DNA from: Lutimonas saemankumensis
GTDB lineage: Bacteria > Bacteroidota > Bacteroidia > Flavobacteriales > Flavobacteriaceae
DNA length: 64,000 nt
Assembly (NCBI RefSeq): GCF_020171465.1
Contig: NZ_JAIUZR010000005.1
Coordinates: 124,001-188,000, forward strand
Reading direction: 5' to 3'
Below, piece after piece: positions 10,946 to 24,330 of the stretch. The first letter of the stretch is position 1. Each line of letters begins with the position of its first letter. Below the pieces are notes generated by a model. It ran no database searches. It was not told where the DNA came from and saw only the letters and a program-made list of their open reading frames with translations. Position numbers and translations under genes: made by a program.

Positions 10946-12190
10946 ATGAGAATAGGAATTATAATTGGCAGAATTGGAGGTGTGGATGGTGTCGCCTTAG
11001 AAACGGAGAAATGGATCGACATCTTGAAAAAATTGGGTCATGAGGTATTTATTATTTCAGGTGAATTTGAATCCTGGGAAATGGATTATGAGCATCATAC
11101 CTTGTTTCCAGCCTTGTCATTTTTTTCTGCTGAAGCCGAATGGGAACAACGTAAGGCATTTTTTGAACCGGACAATGATCCCGATCCCTTACTGGATCAT
11201 GTAGAGAATTGGTCAGACATAATTGAAAAAACCCTGTTACAATGGGTCAGGAACAAAAAAATTGAAGTTATTCTCTCGGAAAACGCCTCAGCTCTTCCCT
11301 GCCAGTTATCCATGGGTGTAGCTATAAAGAAGCTCATAAAAACCACCGGCCTGCCCATAGTGACGCATGATCATGATTTTCATTGGGAACGCGGAGAGCG
11401 ATATTTGTCTGTTCATGGAGAAATTAATCAATATGTAGATGACAACTTTCCGCTTTTGCTGCCCGATGTGAAACATGCCGTGATCAACACATTTGGAGTG
11501 GAAACATTTAGAAAGAGGTTTGACATTGATGCCCTTCTGGTACCCAATGTAATGGATTTTAACCGTGTTTACGGTGTTCCGACTCCTGAGAATCAATTTT
11601 TCCTCCGGGATGTGGGGGTTAAAGAAGATGAGATTGCCTTGCTTCAGGTTACGCGTATTGTGCGACGCAAAGGAATTGAAACAGCCATTTCGTTAATTGA
11701 CCAGCTCAATGACAAGAAGCTTAAATTAGTCATCACCGGAAATAACAACGATGATGAAAATAAAGAATACTACAACGAGTTGATAGATCAGATTCATGAT
11801 CTTAACCTGTCCAGACAAATCATTTTTGCCGCTCACAAGGTGCTGGATCACAAGGATTTATCAGATGTTTATGCTCATGGCAGAGCCTGTACCTATTTTA
11901 GCACGTATGAAGGCTTTGGAAATGCCTTTGTAGAATCTGTCCTTGCTAAAAAACCCATTTTTGTCAATAACTATAAACCTGTTTATATGCAGGACATAGG
12001 CAATAAAGGGTTTGATACGGTTATGATAGAGGACAGCAATTTAACCCGTGAAAAAGTTCGTCAAATGGCGGAGATAATTTATGACCCGGTGCGCTGTAAG
12101 GAAATTGGTGAATACAATTTTGAAGTAGGTAAGAAGTATTTCTCCTATGAGGTACTGGAGCAAAAATTAGATAAGCTGTTTACGTTTTAA
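10946..12190 (+). CDS. GT4-family glycosyltransferase
   Basis: A 414-residue GT-B fold glycosyltransferase. The N-terminal domain begins RIGIIIGRIGGVDGVALETE, a glycine-rich acceptor loop, and contains THDHDFHWERGERY. The C-terminal domain has the donor-site pattern LLQVTRIVRRKGIETA (about 232-247) and the late motif STYEGFGNAFVES (about 318-330), where the E-X7-E glutamates sit. It has no signal or membrane span, so it is cytoplasmic. Only 9 bp separate it from the next gene, so the two are one operon. That next protein has a paralogous GT4 domain, suggesting two successive sugar additions. Donor and acceptor cannot be read from the sequence. Confidence 0.88.
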   Translation: MRIGIIIGRIGGVDGVALETEKWIDILKKLGHEVFIISGEFESWEMDYEHHTLFPALSFFSAEAEWEQRKAFFEPDNDPDPLLDHVENWSDIIEKTLLQWVRNKKIEVILSENASALPCQLSMGVAIKKLIKTTGLPIVTHDHDFHWERGERYLSVHGEINQYVDDNFPLLLPDVKHAVINTFGVETFRKRFDIDALLVPNVMDFNRVYGVPTPENQFFLRDVGVKEDEIALLQVTRIVRRKGIETAISLIDQLNDKKLKLVITGNNNDDENKEYYNELIDQIHDLNLSRQIIFAAHKVLDHKDLSDVYAHGRACTYFSTYEGFGNAFVESVLAKKPIFVNNYKPVYMQDIGNKGFDTVMIEDSNLTREKVRQMAEIIYDPVRCKEIGEYNFEVGKKYFSYEVLEQKLDKLFTF

Positions 12191-12199
12191 TATCCAAGC

Positions 12200-15100
12200 A
12201 TGATTGAAAAAGGAAATTTGAAAATTAGTGAAGTATTACAGGAATTACATCAGGAAAAAATAAATACATGGTTTGATCTCGGCCTTTTTCTGGACAGATT
12301 CAAGGAAAGAAAATTTAAGACAGCTTTTACTGGAGATGCGGGAGAATTCAATCAATATCTCGAGAATGGGGGGCTTGCTTTCCTGACATTCTATTTTACC
12401 ATAGACGGAATCACGGTTGAAACAGAAAAATATGCCAAATCCTTTAAAAGCATTTATCCCAATATACCTATTCATTATATCGCCGGAGAAATTAAGGAGG
12501 AAGCCGATGAACTCATACCCAAGGATGCTTTTCAAAAGGTGATACCACAAATGGAGGCCTTCGATGCCTGGCCACTTTACAGGGACTTTTTTAAAGTAAA
12601 AATGGAACGCGGAAGTGTGGCCTATAATGAGTTGATCGGAAAGTTTTGGAAGGAAGTGTTGGTCCTGGTTGAAGCATTGGGGAGTTATATTGAAGAAAAC
12701 AATATATCCTTGCTCTACCTGATCAATGTATGCTCCAATCCGGGCAATGTTTCTTTGGCACTGGCGACCGTGCTGATTTCGGAATATCTTGGCCTTCCGG
12801 TAATCAATAACAATCATGATTTTTACTGGGAAGGAGGCAACCGGGAAGTTGATATTAAAAGCAAGGGATTAAAAAAAGGGCCCAGAGATTTCTTTTTTCA
12901 CAATGCACATGTTGGCGAATTTTTCTCTCTTATCGAAATGATTTACCCCTGGGAAAGTCGTTCCTGGATGAACGTGAATATCAATAAAATTCAACAAAAT
13001 CACCTGATTGATATCAATGGCCATAATCCGGCAAACGTCGCATTAATAGGAACTGCAGTGGATACCAAAATGCACCGGATGAGCAAACGTGACATCATTA
13101 AGGCCTTTATGCAGGTGTCCAGTATTTTTGCTAATAAAAAAGATACGATTACAGTACATACTGCAGCAAGGCATACCAAAAGTGAACGCTCCTTAAAACC
13201 GATTTTGCTCGGTTATAAAACCATAAAGGAATTTGATTTTGTCAACAATAATATAGTCTTTCTTCAACCTACTCGTGTTATCAGCCGTAAGTCCATAGAA
13301 TTGAATTTCAAGCTTATTAAGCGCCTCTTTTCTTATGATTCATTCTGTGAGAAGTTTATCACAAACCCGCAATTAACGCTCTCATTGATTGTTTCGGGGC
13401 CCATTCCTCATGGCCAGCAGGATTATTATCAGGATCTAAAAAAGGATTTTAAAAACTTTCTTAAAGACCTTCCCAAAGAATTCAGATCTAAGGTGCTGCT
13501 TGGGTTTTTGTTCAGTGAGTTTGATAAAAACGAATTCAAAAAAAAGTATAAAAAGCCACTGGACATTGAGCAGCTATACGATGTAGCTTCCTTGATCCTG
13601 TTACCGAGTCAAACTGAGGGAAGGGGACTGCCTATCATAGAAGCCGCGGCTTGTGGTACACCTATTTTTTGCCGGCAATACGAGCCTCGAGAGGTATATG
13701 ACGAGGTCATAGGCCGTCATTTGGATGAGTCAATGCGTTTGAACGTACTCGAGTTTAAAGGTTCTAAAATTCCAAAGCGCCTGGTGGAAAGAATATCCGA
13801 CCATGTCTTTTATCCGCAGAACAGGATGATTGACGTAACGCATAACAGAAATGTCATCAACAAGCGATTTAGCCTTGAGTCCCTGGAAAATAATATCGTA
13901 TATATATTAAAAAGGCTTCATTTACAATTGGACTCCATTTCGGAGGAGGTAGATCCCCGGATCGTTCATTTGATCAAAGCTTACAGGGAGCTCGTGAATT
14001 TCTCAAACGACGATCTGGATGCGATCCTTAACAGATCAACCAGGCATTATTTACCGGGATACGGACGATTGTCATTTATGCTATATTTAAAATCCTTGAT
14101 TGATCCCAGTTTTTTCAGGGTTGAAGAACAGCTTACAAAAGGAATGGTGATGACATATGCCAGAATGATGGAGAATGACATTCCTGACCTTGTTCATACT
14201 GATTTAGACCTTATTCATAATTTCTACAATGCCATTGATGATATTTTTAAATACGTTGATGGCGAGTTATCCATTAGGCATGATCATGCACTTTCTTATC
14301 GACATAGAAATAAAAAATCATTTGCGTATCAGGCTTTTACCTTTCAGGAAATAACCGGTTTGGTCAATATGATTTACCATGATGTCTTTAAGCCAAAAAA
14401 TCTTAGCGACCTCACTTTGGCACCTCAGTTTTTTGCGGATTGGGAGTTGGCTTTGTTTCAACTGACCAATAGTGATTTCTTGGGAATTGACGACAGGAAA
14501 ATGCTCACCAGCAAACTGAAGAATAATGTGCCTAAAGGCTATTTTCCCGGTCGGTATATCAAACACGAGTTAGAGTATTTTGTCTTGCAACCCATTAGAG
14601 CGCAGCTTAAACTTAGTATACAGGAGGAACTGACTTCAGACCTTCTGGAGGAGAGAGGTAAGAACCTTGAAAAGGTCTATATTTTCATTCATGAGCCTAG
14701 AATTACCAAGTGGTTTTCAAGCGCAAATATAAAAGAGTACTTAGAGAGTGGCACAGAGCCTGAATTAGGCTTATTGTACAAAACTGGTGTGGTTCAGATT
14801 GTTGAGACCAAGCAATGGTCTGAAGGGGTACATTTTCCTCAGATGGGAGCAAATGCAATAAGGATTTTGCGTCAGATCAAAGAATCAGGTGGATTTATTA
14901 TTACCAATGGAGAGCACGCTGCCATGATGACCGACATCATAGAAATTGATCATTTTCATATCGGTAAGGTGATACATGAAATGACTGCTAAAATCATGGG
15001 CATTCCGAAAAACAGTGGCTTTATTCAGTTTGTGCCGGCGGGGGTCCGAACAACCCTAGCTTATCCCACTCCTGTTCAAACGGCCAAAGATTTTGAAACC

Positions 15101-16393
15101 CTGCTGAAGAGCGACCTCTTCAATGAACTAAAAGACAAGATAGGCGAAAAGGATCTCATGAAGAGGATTACTGTCGATGCGATTGAAAACGGAACTCCCT
15201 TGGCTCAGCTTTTGTTTCAGTTAAAGCAAGGGTTAAAAGAAGGCCACAAGACCGAAAGGGTAAAATCCTCATACGCAGGTGGCGTATATAAAGATGGATT
15301 GCCATGGAGTGGGGTTCTTGCCGAAGTTCACACAAAAGAGTACAACTGGAAGTTTGCGGCTCATATAGCCGAAAAAAAACCAAAAAATGTCCCGGCACTG
15401 ATCAGGGAATACAAAAAGAGGAGCAATAATTCCCATAAAATAGAATTGGCCTGGAACGGAGGTTATATTTTAAATCCGGAACTGGTGGGTAAACTGGGCT
15501 TGCCCGAAACTTATATCGGTTCTCCCTTGGGCCTTCTTATTATGGACAATAAGGTGTTCTGCCCTCCACTTTTTAATAAGCCGGCTTTTATCATTTATAA
15601 AAATGGCGAAGTAGATATTCGAAAGGTGAACAGTAAAGCTGGATTTAAGTTAATTGGTCAGGACGATGAACTTGTGTTTCCTTCAGCAAACTATAATAAA
15701 CACGCTACAGCAGAACCTTCTTACTATGATTTGTCATATCCTGAGGAAAAGATTCGAGGAAGAGGTAATGTAATAATCAGGGTAGCCGGCAATATTGTAA
15801 AGGAGGTTATAAAGACTAAAGAAAACGAAGATGTTCAAGTGATACCGGTTGGAATGACCCTTTCTGTTCCTTCCAAACTTTTTTCTGAGGATTTTTTTGA
15901 AGAAGGGAAAGCATTACACATGGATCTAATGGAGCCCGAAAACCATCCTTTTCGGTGGAGCGAAATTTTGTATGCCATAGAAGCAGGGCCTATGCTAATT
16001 AATGGCGGAAGGGAGGTTTTGGATATGGAAGACGAAGGCTGGAAAACTTCGAATTCAATCAGGACACAGGCTGCGAGATTGGATTTCACAGATATGCGAG
16101 GGCCCAAAATAGCAGTGGGTATCACCCGAGAAGGAAAACTCATGGTTCTTATGGTAAATGGCAGAATAAGAGAATCTGTAGGGGCGACTCACTTTGATAT
16201 GGCTGATATTCTTTTAAAATACGGAATGGATAAAGCCATGGGATTTGATCCTGGCGGCAGCAGTACCTTGGTCGTCGACGGAGAGGTTATGAATATTTCA
16301 CCTTATAACAAAAATTATGAAAAGGATATTTACGCTTTACCTCCTGAGCCGAGGTTTGTTGCCAATACGATTATGGGGTGGATTGAAGAGTAA
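12200..16393 (+). CDS. GT4 glycosyltransferase fused to NAGPA phosphodiester glycosidase domain
   Basis: The 1397-residue protein has three parts. Residues about 1-600 are a GT4 glycosyltransferase paralogous to the upstream gene product: NNNHDFYWEGGNREVD parallels THDHDFHWERGERY, FLQPTRVISRKSIELNF parallels the donor loop, and PSQTEGRGLPIIEAAACG is the late motif. Residues about 600-1060 are mostly helical and unrecognised. Residues about 1070-1395 match the phosphodiester glycosidase (NAGPA/DUF2233-type) fold, with AWNGGYILNP, AGPMLINGG, RTQAARLDF and the signature GFDPGGSSTLVVDG. No signal peptide is visible, so it is probably cytoplasmic, unlike most NAGPA proteins. Synthetic and hydrolytic activities in one chain are unusual; a product-trimming or transglycosylation role is inference. 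Confidence 0.82.
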   Translation: MIEKGNLKISEVLQELHQEKINTWFDLGLFLDRFKERKFKTAFTGDAGEFNQYLENGGLAFLTFYFTIDGITVETEKYAKSFKSIYPNIPIHYIAGEIKEEADELIPKDAFQKVIPQMEAFDAWPLYRDFFKVKMERGSVAYNELIGKFWKEVLVLVEALGSYIEENNISLLYLINVCSNPGNVSLALATVLISEYLGLPVINNNHDFYWEGGNREVDIKSKGLKKGPRDFFFHNAHVGEFFSLIEMIYPWESRSWMNVNINKIQQNHLIDINGHNPANVALIGTAVDTKMHRMSKRDIIKAFMQVSSIFANKKDTITVHTAARHTKSERSLKPILLGYKTIKEFDFVNNNIVFLQPTRVISRKSIELNFKLIKRLFSYDSFCEKFITNPQLTLSLIVSGPIPHGQQDYYQDLKKDFKNFLKDLPKEFRSKVLLGFLFSEFDKNEFKKKYKKPLDIEQLYDVASLILLPSQTEGRGLPIIEAAACGTPIFCRQYEPREVYDEVIGRHLDESMRLNVLEFKGSKIPKRLVERISDHVFYPQNRMIDVTHNRNVINKRFSLESLENNIVYILKRLHLQLDSISEEVDPRIVHLIKAYRELVNFSNDDLDAILNRSTRHYLPGYGRLSFMLYLKSLIDPSFFRVEEQLTKGMVMTYARMMENDIPDLVHTDLDLIHNFYNAIDDIFKYVDGELSIRHDHALSYRHRNKKSFAYQAFTFQEITGLVNMIYHDVFKPKNLSDLTLAPQFFADWELALFQLTNSDFLGIDDRKMLTSKLKNNVPKGYFPGRYIKHELEYFVLQPIRAQLKLSIQEELTSDLLEERGKNLEKVYIFIHEPRITKWFSSANIKEYLESGTEPELGLLYKTGVVQIVETKQWSEGVHFPQMGANAIRILRQIKESGGFIITNGEHAAMMTDIIEIDHFHIGKVIHEMTAKIMGIPKNSGFIQFVPAGVRTTLAYPTPVQTAKDFETLLKSDLFNELKDKIGEKDLMKRITVDAIENGTPLAQLLFQLKQGLKEGHKTERVKSSYAGGVYKDGLPWSGVLAEVHTKEYNWKFAAHIAEKKPKNVPALIREYKKRSNNSHKIELAWNGGYILNPELVGKLGLPETYIGSPLGLLIMDNKVFCPPLFNKPAFIIYKNGEVDIRKVNSKAGFKLIGQDDELVFPSANYNKHATAEPSYYDLSYPEEKIRGRGNVIIRVAGNIVKEVIKTKENEDVQVIPVGMTLSVPSKLFSEDFFEEGKALHMDLMEPENHPFRWSEILYAIEAGPMLINGGREVLDMEDEGWKTSNSIRTQAARLDFTDMRGPKIAVGITREGKLMVLMVNGRIRESVGATHFDMADILLKYGMDKAMGFDPGGSSTLVVDGEVMNISPYNKNYEKDIYALPPEPRFVANTIMGWIEE

Positions 16394-16508: not shown

Positions 16509-17690
16509 TTATTTTGGTAAGAATCTCCTTGTCCCTTCCAGGCCGAGTACAAAGGCATCCTCATAGCGATCTTTTCTCATCTGCTTTAGATGGTCTAGAG
16601 CTTCTTCATAGGTATTAAAGACACCGGAATAAAACCGGTTGTAGCCGTCGTCATAACGATGATTGAAAAGGCCTGCCGATTTCTTGTAGGTTCCTGTTTT
16701 TACTTCTTGCAGAAAGGCACCAATCTGAACCGTATAGACTACTTGATCACTTCCAAAGTTATAGGCCTTACCGCTTAAGGTATTCTTGAAGTCTTCCTCA
16801 ACCTGAGCAATTTCAGCTAAGTTCTCTGCCTCAAGAAGAATTTCAAGATCTCTCAGGTTTGCTTCTTCCTCTGCGAGCCTGATTGCCTCTTCTTCAACCG
16901 CTTTAAACGCAGCCATATAATCTTCTTTTGAGCCTGTAGCTGAAACATTTAGTTTGATAGGGGTTGAGGGCTCATCTTCATTTACAACTGAGGCGAAGAC
17001 ATCTAATTCTTCTCCATCGGTATCAATATCTGATGTAAAATAAAGGACATTGCTTTCGTCAAGCAAGGGCTGCATCTCGCGTTCTTCTGAATTTATTTTT
17101 GAACCCATGTTTTCAGCATTTCCATAAGTCCCGTCCTCAAGCAGATCGACAACAAAAATGTCAGTTTTTCCGGTAGACTGTGGACCGTCAGCCACAAAAT
17201 ACAGTTTGGTGTCATCATTGTTCAGTGAAGGATATCCCGTTGAATTTCGTTTGCCATTCACAGGAAGCATTTCAAGATTTTCCCATTCCCCATTTTCTTT
17301 CACATTGGCTTTGAACAGCTTGAGCTGTACCGACTTTTTGATCTTCACATCAGACGTATTCCCTTTTTTGGCTTTCAGTTTTTTATGGGCACTAAAGTAA
17401 ACCGTTTTCAGGTCTTTTGTATAAGCAATCATGTCTTCCTGAATATCAAAGTTAGGGTCAGCAAGTAACAGATCATTTACTTCATAAGTTTCATACTCGG
17501 AAGAATTATCCTCGTACATGTTTAAATCGGGTGAGCCTTTTTCCTTGAACGGGTTGTCATTTGTAGCAATTTCTAATTCGGCATAAGAGCTGTTAAAAAT
17601 GTCATTCGCACTTTCATCAACTCCCTGTACTCCCTGGGCAATCATTCCGAATGGAACAGCTGCCAGCATCATAATCATTAATTTTTTCAT
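16509..17690 (-). CDS. Exported PD40 propeller and SPOR-like domain protein (copy 1)
   Basis: A 393-residue protein with signal peptide MKKLMIMMLAAVPFGMIAQ. The middle (about 90-250) has WD40-like/PD40 repeats of the TolB/OmpA-linked type, with motifs YPSLNNDDTKLYFVADGPQS and MQPLLDESNVLYFTSD. An acidic helical segment (about 270-310) follows. The C-terminus (about 318-388) is SPOR-like: VVYTVQIGAFLQEVKTG ... YNRFYSGVFNTYEEALDHL. SPOR domains bind denuded peptidoglycan, so an envelope or cell-wall role is likely. It is paralogous over its whole length to the gene at 23146-24330 on the opposite strand. Confidence 0.82.
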   Translation of the reverse strand: MKKLMIMMLAAVPFGMIAQGVQGVDESANDIFNSSYAELEIATNDNPFKEKGSPDLNMYEDNSSEYETYEVNDLLLADPNFDIQEDMIAYTKDLKTVYFSAHKKLKAKKGNTSDVKIKKSVQLKLFKANVKENGEWENLEMLPVNGKRNSTGYPSLNNDDTKLYFVADGPQSTGKTDIFVVDLLEDGTYGNAENMGSKINSEEREMQPLLDESNVLYFTSDIDTDGEELDVFASVVNEDEPSTPIKLNVSATGSKEDYMAAFKAVEEEAIRLAEEEANLRDLEILLEAENLAEIAQVEEDFKNTLSGKAYNFGSDQVVYTVQIGAFLQEVKTGTYKKSAGLFNHRYDDGYNRFYSGVFNTYEEALDHLKQMRKDRYEDAFVLGLEGTRRFLPK

Positions 17691-17812: not shown

Positions 17813-19495
17813 TTATCCGGACTTTGATCTAGGTTCATGAGAAGGAGAAGGAGGAGGTGGTGGAGGTGGTGGATCAGCCTGTTGATTCAATGGTTTGCCT
17901 TCTTTCAATTTCATCAAATTGGCTTCAATTAAAGAAAGGTTAGAATCTTTGGTTCTTTTGGCAAGTTCATATCCTTCAGATAATATTTTAACAGCTTCCT
18001 CTTTTTTGCCGGCTATAGACAATGCTTCTGCGTAACTGTCATAGGGATTTACAGAGTCAGGGTAAAGTAGTACGGCGAGTTCAAAGATTCCCAGCGCTTT
18101 GTTTACTTCACCATCTCTTAGTAAATTATACCCTTTACGGTTCAAATAGGATTCTTCTGGCAAATAATTCTCTTTATAAAGTTCATTGTACCTTTGATAA
18201 TGATTAATAGCAGCCCGTGCATAACCTAGTGTTTCAGTTTCTGCTTCAAATTGCTTAAACAGCTTTTCCAAGGCCGTTAAATCTAACCCTTTGTGGATTG
18301 TTTCTTTTGACAGGTTCCAGTGGGAGTATAAAGTAAAATTGGTTCCAACGGATTTAGACAGGCCCCGGAGTCCGTATTCTGTCTTGGTAAACTTTACCTG
18401 AGAGCTCAAATTTCTTGCGTTGTCAACCATAGTGAAATACAATTGATTTGACTTGATTTCCGTGTCCCTTACGATCATACTTTCTTTTTCATTCGGACTA
18501 AAGATGGAGAGCTTTGCAATAAGGTTATTATCTTTTTCCTCAATATCTAATATCATTCCCAGGTCATCGGATCCATAGGTCGATGTACCATACCATCTAC
18601 CGGTAATGTCTTTTTTGATGATGTTCTCACCTTCAGGAAGCACCGGGATCTTAAAACGTGATTCGGGTTCTTTTAGATCATAAAAGTCTTTGTTTTCCCT
18701 TGCTTGTTTCAACAGATTCCAGCTTTCTATTTGAATTTGATTCGCATCATCTTCTGGAATATCTACCAATAAATTTGTGTTTAAGGAGGGATTTCCTGAG
18801 CTTGATAATTGCTGTCCTGAAATTTTCCCTGATAGCCCTATTGGATTTTCGTTGAAAAGCGTTGAAAATATTGTGGTAGCTGCTAAATAAGATCCGTGAG
18901 GAGAAGGGTGTGAACCATCCCTTGCATAAAGATCGAATTCTTTCCGATTGCGAACCATATCCCACACTAAACCTACGGGAGCAATTTCGGCCTGTAGCTC
19001 TTTGGCAATGGAGGAGTAGGCATAGGTCAAAAGTTCTTGCTCCTCAGGTCGATTCTTAACTGACCAGGTCATAAAAAACACAGTTTGTGCTCCTGATTTT
19101 TTTATTTCCCGATCAAATTTTTTTGCATATTCAAAAAAGAGATCGGTTTGGCCAAAATAGATTTCATTATCTATGATAACGGGCATTCCCAGTTTGCTTT
19201 GCTCCTGCAGAACTACATAATTCCAGGAACCGGATCTGATCGCTTTTTGAGCTACTCCGGATTCCCAGTGACGCTTGAGCGTCATGCCTCCCTGGCTAAT
19301 CAGTTTAATTTGAATCGTTCGATCAGGAAATTTTTCCATAGCAAGTTGCTTAACCAGTTCGGGAGCACTATGGTAATACGTATAACTATTTCCTATAAAA
19401 AGGATTCTTGTTGTATCTGAAGGTTTGAGCTGCGAAAAGGTAAGAGACGTAACAAATAGGAAAAACAGGAAATAGAATTTCTTTGACCGGATCAT
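17813..19495 (-). CDS. Secreted SGNH/GDSL hydrolase with TPR and proline-rich tail
   Basis: A 560-residue protein with signal peptide ending TSLTFSQ. The SGNH hydrolase domain (about 28-220) has block I GNSYT (Ser37), SQGGMTL and the catalytic pair DGSHPS (Asp193, His196), similar to DUF4886-type SGNH proteins. A beta-rich segment (about 290-400) with GRWYGTSTYGSDDLG looks like a DUF-type lipocalin or FABP-like module. A TPR segment (about 430-530) contains VNPYDSYAEALSIAGKKEEA. The C-terminus ends in a run of eight prolines followed by a short basic tail. The activity is probably an esterase on an envelope or glycan substrate. Confidence 0.78.
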   Translation of the reverse strand: MIRSKKFYFLFFLFVTSLTFSQLKPSDTTRILFIGNSYTYYHSAPELVKQLAMEKFPDRTIQIKLISQGGMTLKRHWESGVAQKAIRSGSWNYVVLQEQSKLGMPVIIDNEIYFGQTDLFFEYAKKFDREIKKSGAQTVFFMTWSVKNRPEEQELLTYAYSSIAKELQAEIAPVGLVWDMVRNRKEFDLYARDGSHPSPHGSYLAATTIFSTLFNENPIGLSGKISGQQLSSSGNPSLNTNLLVDIPEDDANQIQIESWNLLKQARENKDFYDLKEPESRFKIPVLPEGENIIKKDITGRWYGTSTYGSDDLGMILDIEEKDNNLIAKLSIFSPNEKESMIVRDTEIKSNQLYFTMVDNARNLSSQVKFTKTEYGLRGLSKSVGTNFTLYSHWNLSKETIHKGLDLTALEKLFKQFEAETETLGYARAAINHYQRYNELYKENYLPEESYLNRKGYNLLRDGEVNKALGIFELAVLLYPDSVNPYDSYAEALSIAGKKEEAVKILSEGYELAKRTKDSNLSLIEANLMKLKEGKPLNQQADPPPPPPPPSPSHEPRSKSG

Positions 19496-23145: not shown

Positions 23146-24330
23146 ATGAAAAATGCACTAATGATTATAATGCTATGCATTCCGTTTGGAATGTATGCTC
23201 AGGAAAAGCAGGTTGTAAACAACCTGGAAAATGATATCCTTAACTTTGCCTATGCAGATAACGATGATTTCTTTAGCAGGGAAAGCGATTTGAAAATCAG
23301 AAATCTTAATAAAGAAGGCAGGAATGTTAACATCAACTGGAGGGTGGCAAATGCAAAACTGTTCGATGAAAATGAGTTTGATTTAAATGAAGGAATGGTA
23401 ACCTTTACGAGGGACAGAAAAACCGTATTCTTTAGTGTAAATCGTAAAATCAAGAAAGTAAAGAGTGAAAATGATCAGAGTGTAAAAACAAAGAAATCTG
23501 TTCATCTTCAGTTATTTAAAGCTAGTGTCAACGAGGATGGTACATGGCAAAATCTTGAAATGCTACCTATCAACGGTAATAGATTTTCAACCGGACAGCC
23601 GGCCTTGAATAATGACGATACGGTTTTATACTTTGTGTCTGACAGACCCGAATCTTTGGGAAGGACCGATATTTTTAGGGTGGACCTTAATGATGATGGA
23701 ACTTACGGAGAGCCAGTAAATTTGGGTCCCGCGGTCAATAGTGTTGAACGTGAAATTTTTCCTGAAATTGATTCTCAAAATGTGCTGTATTTTTCATCGG
23801 ATATTGATTCCGAAAATGGAGAGCTGAATGTTTACGCAAGTAAGATTTTAGACAATGAGATGTCTAGACCAGTACGATTGGATGTGGCAAAAGACGCTGG
23901 AGTTGATGCCTATGCCAGTGCATTTATGGCCATTACCCCAGAAGAGGCTGATCAGATAGAAAATGTTATGAACATGGGTGTGAACCCTGTACCCCAGAAT
24001 CAAACCATCCTTGCAGAAGATAATACCACTGATAATACTATATATGAATCAGAGGCGGTGACCGACAATAAAGAATTTGTACCCTATGATTTTGGAGGTA
24101 ATAGAAAAATTTTTACCGTTCAGATCGGAGCCTTTCAGGGAAAAGCCAGAAAAGAAAAGTTTCATCAGGTATATAATTTATTTGATCATATTTATCCAGA
24201 TGGGTATCAACGATATTATTCGGGTATTTTTAATTCGCATGAAGAAGCTCTTGAGCACTTAAAATCCTTAATAAATGAAGGGTATGAAGATGCCTACATT
24301 GTCAGATTAAAGGGAGAGGAAAGATTCTGA
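23146..24330 (+). CDS. Exported PD40 propeller and SPOR-like domain protein (copy 2)
   Basis: A 394-residue protein with signal peptide MKNALMIIMLCIPFGMYAQ. It aligns end to end with the protein at 16509-17690: TVFFSVNRKIKKVKSENDQS versus TVYFSAHKKLKAKKGNTSD, LEMLPINGNRFSTGQPALNN versus LEMLPVNGKRNSTGYPSLNN, and the C-terminal SPOR-like VQIGAFQGKARKEKF ... YQRYYSGIFNSHEEALEHL. PD40 repeats occupy about 135-250. The C-terminal domain would bind peptidoglycan and the propeller would bind a protein or glycan. The gene is divergent from ftsH and inverted relative to its paralogue. Confidence 0.82.
   Translation: MKNALMIIMLCIPFGMYAQEKQVVNNLENDILNFAYADNDDFFSRESDLKIRNLNKEGRNVNINWRVANAKLFDENEFDLNEGMVTFTRDRKTVFFSVNRKIKKVKSENDQSVKTKKSVHLQLFKASVNEDGTWQNLEMLPINGNRFSTGQPALNNDDTVLYFVSDRPESLGRTDIFRVDLNDDGTYGEPVNLGPAVNSVEREIFPEIDSQNVLYFSSDIDSENGELNVYASKILDNEMSRPVRLDVAKDAGVDAYASAFMAITPEEADQIENVMNMGVNPVPQNQTILAEDNTTDNTIYESEAVTDNKEFVPYDFGGNRKIFTVQIGAFQGKARKEKFHQVYNLFDHIYPDGYQRYYSGIFNSHEEALEHLKSLINEGYEDAYIVRLKGEERF

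Follow-up and report, generated by a model that had tools for sequence, protein, structure and literature searches.

NAGPA enzymes act on glycosyl-1-phosphodiesters and usually do so outside the cytoplasm, and the DUF89/ARMT1 fold is that of metal-dependent metabolite phosphatases. Fusions of a glycosyltransferase to a phosphatase are known for glycosidic solutes, as in the synthase-phosphatases of glucosylglycerol-phosphate and sucrose-phosphate. Both Petrotoga and the marine planctomycete Rhodopirellula baltica have mannosylglucosylglycerate as a compatible solute (PMC3694870). Here, we describe a locus of Lutimonas saemankumensis (Flavobacteriaceae) that encodes a 1397-residue fusion protein, composed of an N-terminal GT4 glycosyltransferase, a middle module with a predicted DUF89 fold and a C-terminal NAGPA domain, next to a stand-alone GT4 glycosyltransferase (the companion). 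The stretch analyzed, hereafter the window, comprises 64,000 nucleotides (positions 124,001–188,000 of NZ_JAIUZR010000005.1, assembly GCF_020171465.1) and is part of contig 5 of a genome of 3.58 Mb. The fusion protein is like the known synthase-phosphatases in that a single chain combines a glycosyltransferase with a phosphatase fold, but it differs from them in the DUF89-like nature of that fold, in its additional glycosidase module and in having a second GT4 alongside. The reading that we favor, tentatively and with somewhat less than even confidence, is that the two genes by themselves make up a pathway in the cytoplasm that yields a small soluble glycoside, probably built on a charged acceptor and probably similar to a compatible solute.

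The reading frame of the fusion (12200–16393, + strand) is open throughout its 1397 codons. A preliminary description of this DNA had proposed a GT4 domain joined to a phosphodiester glycosidase domain, lacking a signal peptide and adjacent to a paralogous GT4, and all of these points were borne out, the signal peptide being apparently absent: PF00534 and PF09992 both match above their cut-offs within one frame, and the 414-residue companion is 22–25% identical to the glycosyltransferase of the fusion over ∼150 residues in the eight genomes in which both occur. In a simple hydropathy scan, which is not a signal-peptide predictor, neither protein showed a signal-like N-terminus or a clear transmembrane segment, and the highest 19-residue window of the fusion (1.85) lies within the glycosyltransferase domain. 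A scan of a genome collection gave 117 stretches that encode a relative, and the best 80 of these form the set of loci used here, with best-segment identities of 44–83%. The fusion is whole and in one frame in 68 loci (1378–1432 residues), cut by a contig end in 10 and broken in two (L086 and L091); apart from these truncated and broken copies, no module has been lost. That a sequencing or assembly artefact produced the fusion, as the two broken copies and a GT4 that stands alone in two Planctomycetota genomes (described below) might suggest, is therefore next to impossible, because all 10 truncated copies end at a contig edge and in L086 the companion is broken as well. In L091 (11212–15380), which is a metagenome-assembled genome (MAG), the fusion is split near the boundary between the glycosyltransferase and DUF89-like parts, into 598 residues followed by 773 residues in another frame. 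For the analysis of conservation, the 68 full-length proteins were thinned at <88% identity to 44, which together with the copy of the window gave 45 sequences.

The GT4 domain (residues ∼1–580, 12200–13939, + strand) matches Glycos_transf_1 (PF00534) at residues 450–495 with an E value of 6.6e-07 and 29.5 bits (cut-off 26.4). Its AlphaFold2 model, with a predicted local distance difference test score (pLDDT) of 82, has a GT-B fold, and Foldseek and VIA searches retrieved HepE, PimB', BshA and MshA. The superpositions, made with the glycosyltransferase of the fusion, had a Z-score of 22.2 and a root-mean-square deviation (rmsd) of 3.5 over 367 residues for 7mi0, and a Z-score of 21.8 and an rmsd of 3.8 over 351 residues for HepE (4xso_A). 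The EX7E motif of GT4 enzymes is formed by E473 and E481 (13616–13642, + strand); both residues, together with R359 and K364, are invariant in the 44-row glycosyltransferase alignment (A2, L047 omitted). Similarity of this domain to the mannosylglucosylglycerate synthase family NF041101 is weak (E 1.1e-11, 44 bits versus a cut-off of 640).

At the other end of the protein, NAGPA family PF09992 covers residues 1226–1372 (E 7.8e-19, 68.9 bits, cut-off 25). The domain as defined by fold is larger (residues ∼1017–1397, 15248–16390, + strand), so the DUF89-like part is confined to residues ∼601–960. Structural matches of the NAGPA part include the vertebrate uncovering enzyme UCE (6pky_C; Z 15.8, rmsd 3.4, 243 residues aligned) and BACOVA_00430 (3ohg; Z 15.5, rmsd 3.0, 244 aligned), and its sequence profile finds Slr0280 (5h3k) at an E value of 4.9e-10 and vertebrate NAGPA at 4.8e-08 or weaker. 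These solved members of the family have the fold and the D-x-G-G-S stretch in common with the fusion, which reads D-P-G-G-S where vertebrate NAGPA reads D-G-G-G-S and has K1303 aligned to an arginine of the vertebrate enzyme. Two stretches are invariant in the NAGPA alignment (A4, 36 of the 45 rows): W-N-G-G at residues 1085–1088 (15452–15463, + strand) and D-P-G-G-S-S at residues 1350–1355 (16247–16264, + strand). By sequence and fold, the C-terminus is thus a NAGPA domain, as the preliminary description had it, and phosphodiester glycosidase activity is predicted for it. Unlike the NAGPA/DUF2233 enzymes listed above, it shares its chain with a DUF89-fold module and a GT4 and lacks a signal-like N-terminus. 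In one conceivable reading, the pathway would act on a sugar in phosphodiester or pyrophosphate linkage: working in the cytoplasm, the domain would hydrolyze a nucleotide sugar or a glycosyl-1-phosphodiester, or use it for transfer, and so control the donor pool of the glycosyltransferases. UCE hydrolyzes UDP-N-acetylglucosamine (UDP-GlcNAc) too (PMC12024695). The fusion is the sole PF09992 match in the genome of the window, and a glycosyltransferase and NAGPA on one chain would share their donor; however, a donor-wasting module fused to a glycosyltransferase is counter-intuitive, and the loci do not generally share any third gene, hence none that would make a donor. We consider this reading improbable.

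For the intervening region, the preliminary description had reported about 460 residues matching nothing recognizable and had recommended a domain search. At the level of sequence that statement held. Pfam returned no family for the copy of the window at an E value of 1, PF01937 included, and across the middle regions of the 45 members it listed 23 families, each in one member and none of them PF01937. A search of PDB sequences with the profile of the region returned one chain, auxilin, at an E value of 1.1, which was taken as chance. Alignments with 16, 9 or 7 PF01937 proteins in hhalign had E values of 0.06–0.14 in local and 0.6–0.9 in global mode, and the genome of the window has no PF01937 match. 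At the level of structure the statement did not hold. An AlphaFold2 model of residues 590–1397, computed with the 45 sequences (pLDDT 83), was placed by Foldseek and VIA on the DUF89/ARMT1 fold over model residues ∼12–371, which correspond to protein residues 601–960 (14000–15079, + strand). The matches comprise PH1575 (2g8l_B; Z 20.5, rmsd 2.6 Å, 244 aligned, Foldseek E 8.1e-08), At2g17340 (1xfi; Z 20.2, rmsd 3.8, 294 aligned) and AF1104 (2ffj_B; Z 19.3, rmsd 2.7, 231 residues). Among the top 14 VIA rows, 13 are DUF89-type entries, some identified by their titles, and the remaining one is the NAGPA protein 5h3k. Every row that is neither DUF89 nor NAGPA has a Z-score of ≤7.0, and everything from rank 22 downwards, including many methyltransferases, was discarded as common Rossmann-like similarity. 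Since profile searches and hhalign detect no DUF89 link, it is the predicted structure that assigns this region a DUF89/ARMT1-like fold.

The middle region thus shares its predicted fold with DUF89/ARMT1-like phosphatases such as PH1575 and At2g17340, but it differs from them in having no PF01937 match, in its uncertain metal ligands and in a private set of charged positions that never vary (D635, R640, E642, D695, R701, R703, D912 and R950). Two segments stand out in the alignments: S632/D635/S637/R640/E642 (14093–14125, + strand), invariant in the 45 rows of alignments A1 and A3, and the IRHDHxxxYRHRNK stretch (14273–14314, + strand), in which D695, Y700, R701 and R703 are invariant. Two aspartates are essential for DUF89 phosphatase activity, D623 and D659 in PANK4 (PMC9352595). 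The corresponding metal ligands were sought by strand order, which allows two registers. The first places I-D-[D/N]-R at the metal site, with D764 in 41 of the 45 rows and D or N at position 765 in 39, whereas the second places Y781-F782 there in lieu of the DUF89 Asp-Asn pair. The second register and the private set of invariant residues would fit a different account, in which the DUF89-like part has been repurposed as an acceptor-binding module or scaffold, NAGPA serves as a regulatory or transglycosylating module and the two GT4 enzymes alone make the product. Against it, D764 and its neighbor could be the metal pair in the first register, the NAGPA motif residues are invariant and none of the 80 loci has lost a module except by truncation at a contig end or in the two broken copies. 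We regard this account as credible but rather unlikely.

The companion (10946–12190, + strand, 414 residues) ends 9 nt before the fusion. It matches PF00534 with an E value of 1.1e-16 and 61.3 bits (cut-off 26.4) and has an EX7E motif at residue 322 and TRIVRRK at residue 236. Its closest curated family is mannosylglucosylglycerate synthase (NF041101, E 1.5e-60), which it matches over the full length. The companion lies directly upstream of the fusion on the same strand in 48 of the 80 loci (gap of –4 to 323 nt) and 1.1–8.2 kb downstream on the other strand in 15, which makes 63, some copies at contig edges being partial. For 16 of the 17 loci with no companion (all except L078) the genome was searched, and the companion was found elsewhere in 14 (E ≤ 1e-30), the weakest being a 132-residue match at a contig edge; overall, it is present in 77 of the 80 cases. 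The same pattern is seen in a sample of 60 relatives, where fusion and companion (E ≤ 1e-20) occur in the same eight genomes, and all 52 genomes without the fusion, some of which are incomplete MAGs, also lack the companion. A genome of the same genus, G004, has both genes. The companion is therefore a near-obligate partner of the fusion. In a tree of 42 hand-chosen rows, a single branch (100/100) separates the fusion glycosyltransferases from the companions and their Planctomycetota relatives. In a MAG titled Caldithrix (L083:332–2990), two companion GT4 genes (425 and 434 residues) stand in tandem before a fusion that is cut by the contig end.

The host range of the fusion is mostly Bacteroidota, judging by the record titles of the 80 loci, and the named genera include Winogradskyella, Marinifilum, Lutibacter, Flavivirga and Polaribacter, all of which are marine. 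Some MAGs are titled Calditrichota/Caldithrix, Planctomycetota, Chlorobiota, Desulfobacterales or Gammaproteobacteria, but such phylum labels are not always right. The copy labelled 'Gammaproteobacteria' clusters with one from Calditrichota (100/100 in both trees), and L064, labelled 'Chlorobiota', clusters with one from Bacteroidota (97/98 in the second tree, of 30 hand-chosen rows). In sampled genomes, the middle region was found in 1 of 395 Bacteroidota, namely the genome of the window, and in 7 of 40 genomes from the phylum to which a Calditrichota genome belongs, including two that had already been identified; the frames that hold the matches in sampled genomes are as long as the fusion or, where shorter, are cut or apparently cut at a contig end. 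Plasmid sequences contained no match to residues 601–1067, and phage sequences contained three short matches, all to the NAGPA motif region. Among the entries listed by full-text searches of open-licence papers there was no description of the fusion protein, which is not proof of absence.

A GT4 of the fusion type stands alone in two Planctomycetota genomes, G656 and G728, out of 17 of that class. In G656 it is a 603-residue frame that scores 442 bits to the profile and is 30.5–35.0% identical to each of 23 fusion glycosyltransferases, and in G728 a 601-residue frame that scores 451 bits. In both clusters (L155:785–5100 and L160:617–3572), it is directly followed by a further gene whose sequence, on reading, looks GT4-like, and the one after that in G656 encodes a companion-like glycosyltransferase (43% identical). 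The middle domain was not found in the G656 genome, and neither it nor NAGPA was found on the 5.2 kb contig of G728, the only part looked at. The lone GT4 has a long branch and may be either ancestral or the outcome of a loss. These clusters give further support to the account in which the middle and NAGPA modules are not catalytic in the manner of their families, as they combine a ∼600-residue fusion-type GT4 and, in G656, a companion-like enzyme without either module. More widely, companion-like glycosyltransferases at E ≤ 1e-40, all below the NF041101 cut-off, occur in 9 of 199 genomes of the planctomycete's phylum. Eight regions around them, from seven of the nine genomes (G467 and G711 left out), were inspected and some of their genes scanned. 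In L152, a run of genes on one strand encodes a true GpgS (388.8 bits versus a cut-off of 262), another glycosyltransferase-like protein that scores too low for the Pfam cut-off, a phosphatase of the HAD type, a companion relative (32.6% identical) and a GH13 protein similar to sucrose phosphorylase. This operon-like run resembles the roles proposed here (glycosyltransferase, phosphatase, glycosyltransferase, releasing enzyme) and indicates that the wider kin of the companion include sugar-glycerate-type enzymes. A GH13 gene is also present in L154, and a sodium:solute symporter lies beside the companion-like gene in L157; L155 is the G656 cluster, and the scanned neighbors in L150, L151, L153 and L156 were uninformative.

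The relatives of the companion and the lineages of the hosts make a pathway for an intracellular glycoside, which may be a compatible solute, the likeliest reading, as the preliminary description had also supposed, although the function is deduced from those relatives and lineages. In the scheme that we infer, from its location in the cytoplasm and its substrates to the sequence of reactions, the phosphatase activity and the role as a solute, the GT4 domain of the fusion would transfer a sugar from a nucleotide sugar to a small, probably phosphorylated, acceptor, and the DUF89-fold module would bind and probably dephosphorylate the product. The companion would then add a second sugar in the manner of mannosylglucosylglycerate synthase. 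The NAGPA module may cleave an alpha-glycosyl bond that adjoins a phosphate, be it in a nucleotide sugar, in an intermediate or in the product, which would result in turnover of the compound or in proofreading. What the data display directly are three conserved modules on one chain, a near-obligate partner GT4, conserved motif residues in the GT4 and NAGPA domains, the lack of a third gene that the loci generally share and, by hydropathy, the lack of signal-like or membrane-like segments.

Several results weigh against the pathway that we favor. At 205.1 bits, the full-length match of the companion to mannosylglucosylglycerate synthase stays far below the NF041101 equivalog cut-off of 640. GpgS (NF010496) was above its cut-off in none of 25 hand-chosen fusion-bearing genomes, several of them MAGs and other GpgS models being untried, and sub-threshold matches occurred in all 25 as well as in all 14 control genomes. 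The acceptor is therefore probably not derived from the canonical glucosylglycerate route, and a pathway based on glucosylglycerate is not supported. The companion was not found in two fusion-bearing genomes, G064 (2.3 Mb) and G070 (2.2 Mb). Conversely, the middle domain is absent from all eight genomes with companion-like glycosyltransferases that remain when the fusion-bearing G467 is set aside, so such enzymes also work without the fusion, and just two of the eight inspected regions (L152 and L154) look solute-like. The middle region is rare, being found in 8 of 397 sampled Flavobacteriaceae genomes. Finally, the hhalign link between the middle region and DUF89 was rejected for incoherent alignments and weak E values, and the canonical DUF89 metal ligands could not be placed.

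The survey of the fusion and its neighbors that the preliminary description had suggested found no generally conserved third gene beside the pair across the 80 loci. The widest other cluster is present in 23 of them and reflects local synteny in Bacteroidales. HemN-like, VanZ-like, RpiB-like and Rrf2-like neighbors (names from reading the sequences, with no family search) recur there by local synteny only and were dismissed as functional partners, as was the recurrent neighbor set of Winogradskyella. A system that glycosylates the envelope, a polysaccharide or another macromolecule, in which GT4 enzymes are common, might be expected from the further GT4-like gene that follows the lone GT4 in G656 and G728 and from the usual extracytoplasmic location of NAGPA proteins. 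However, with no third gene conserved there is no general export or polymerase gene alongside, hydropathy reveals nothing signal-like or membrane-like in either protein, and the pair co-occurs even in genomes where it is unlinked, which makes such a system quite improbable. In L068 (15789–17288), a sodium:solute symporter directly follows the fusion and a gene of the same cluster is found there in L069, an arrangement that is not general. Downstream in the window, two similar-looking proteins with signal-like starts are encoded on opposite strands at 16509–17690, with weak PD40 and SPOR matches, and at 23146–24330, judged by eye from the translation. Between them, 17813–19495 encodes a DUF4886-like protein (26.1 bits, Pfam cut-off 26.7), which matches TPR weakly and is rich in proline at its C-terminus.

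The broader proposal, that an undescribed three-activity enzyme and its partner glycosyltransferase make an intracellular glycoside, likely a new marine compatible solute, with the middle region founding a new DUF89-fold subfamily, is one to which we assign a low but appreciable likelihood. If true, several marine lineages would share a compact two-gene route to an unnamed small glycoside, and the making and unmaking of this compound would be built into one protein. To our knowledge, from a search that was not exhaustive, a NAGPA domain would thereby have its first role inside the cell. The DUF89 fold would gain a new subfamily, and culturable Winogradskyella, Marinifilum and Polaribacter would offer a candidate solute pathway.

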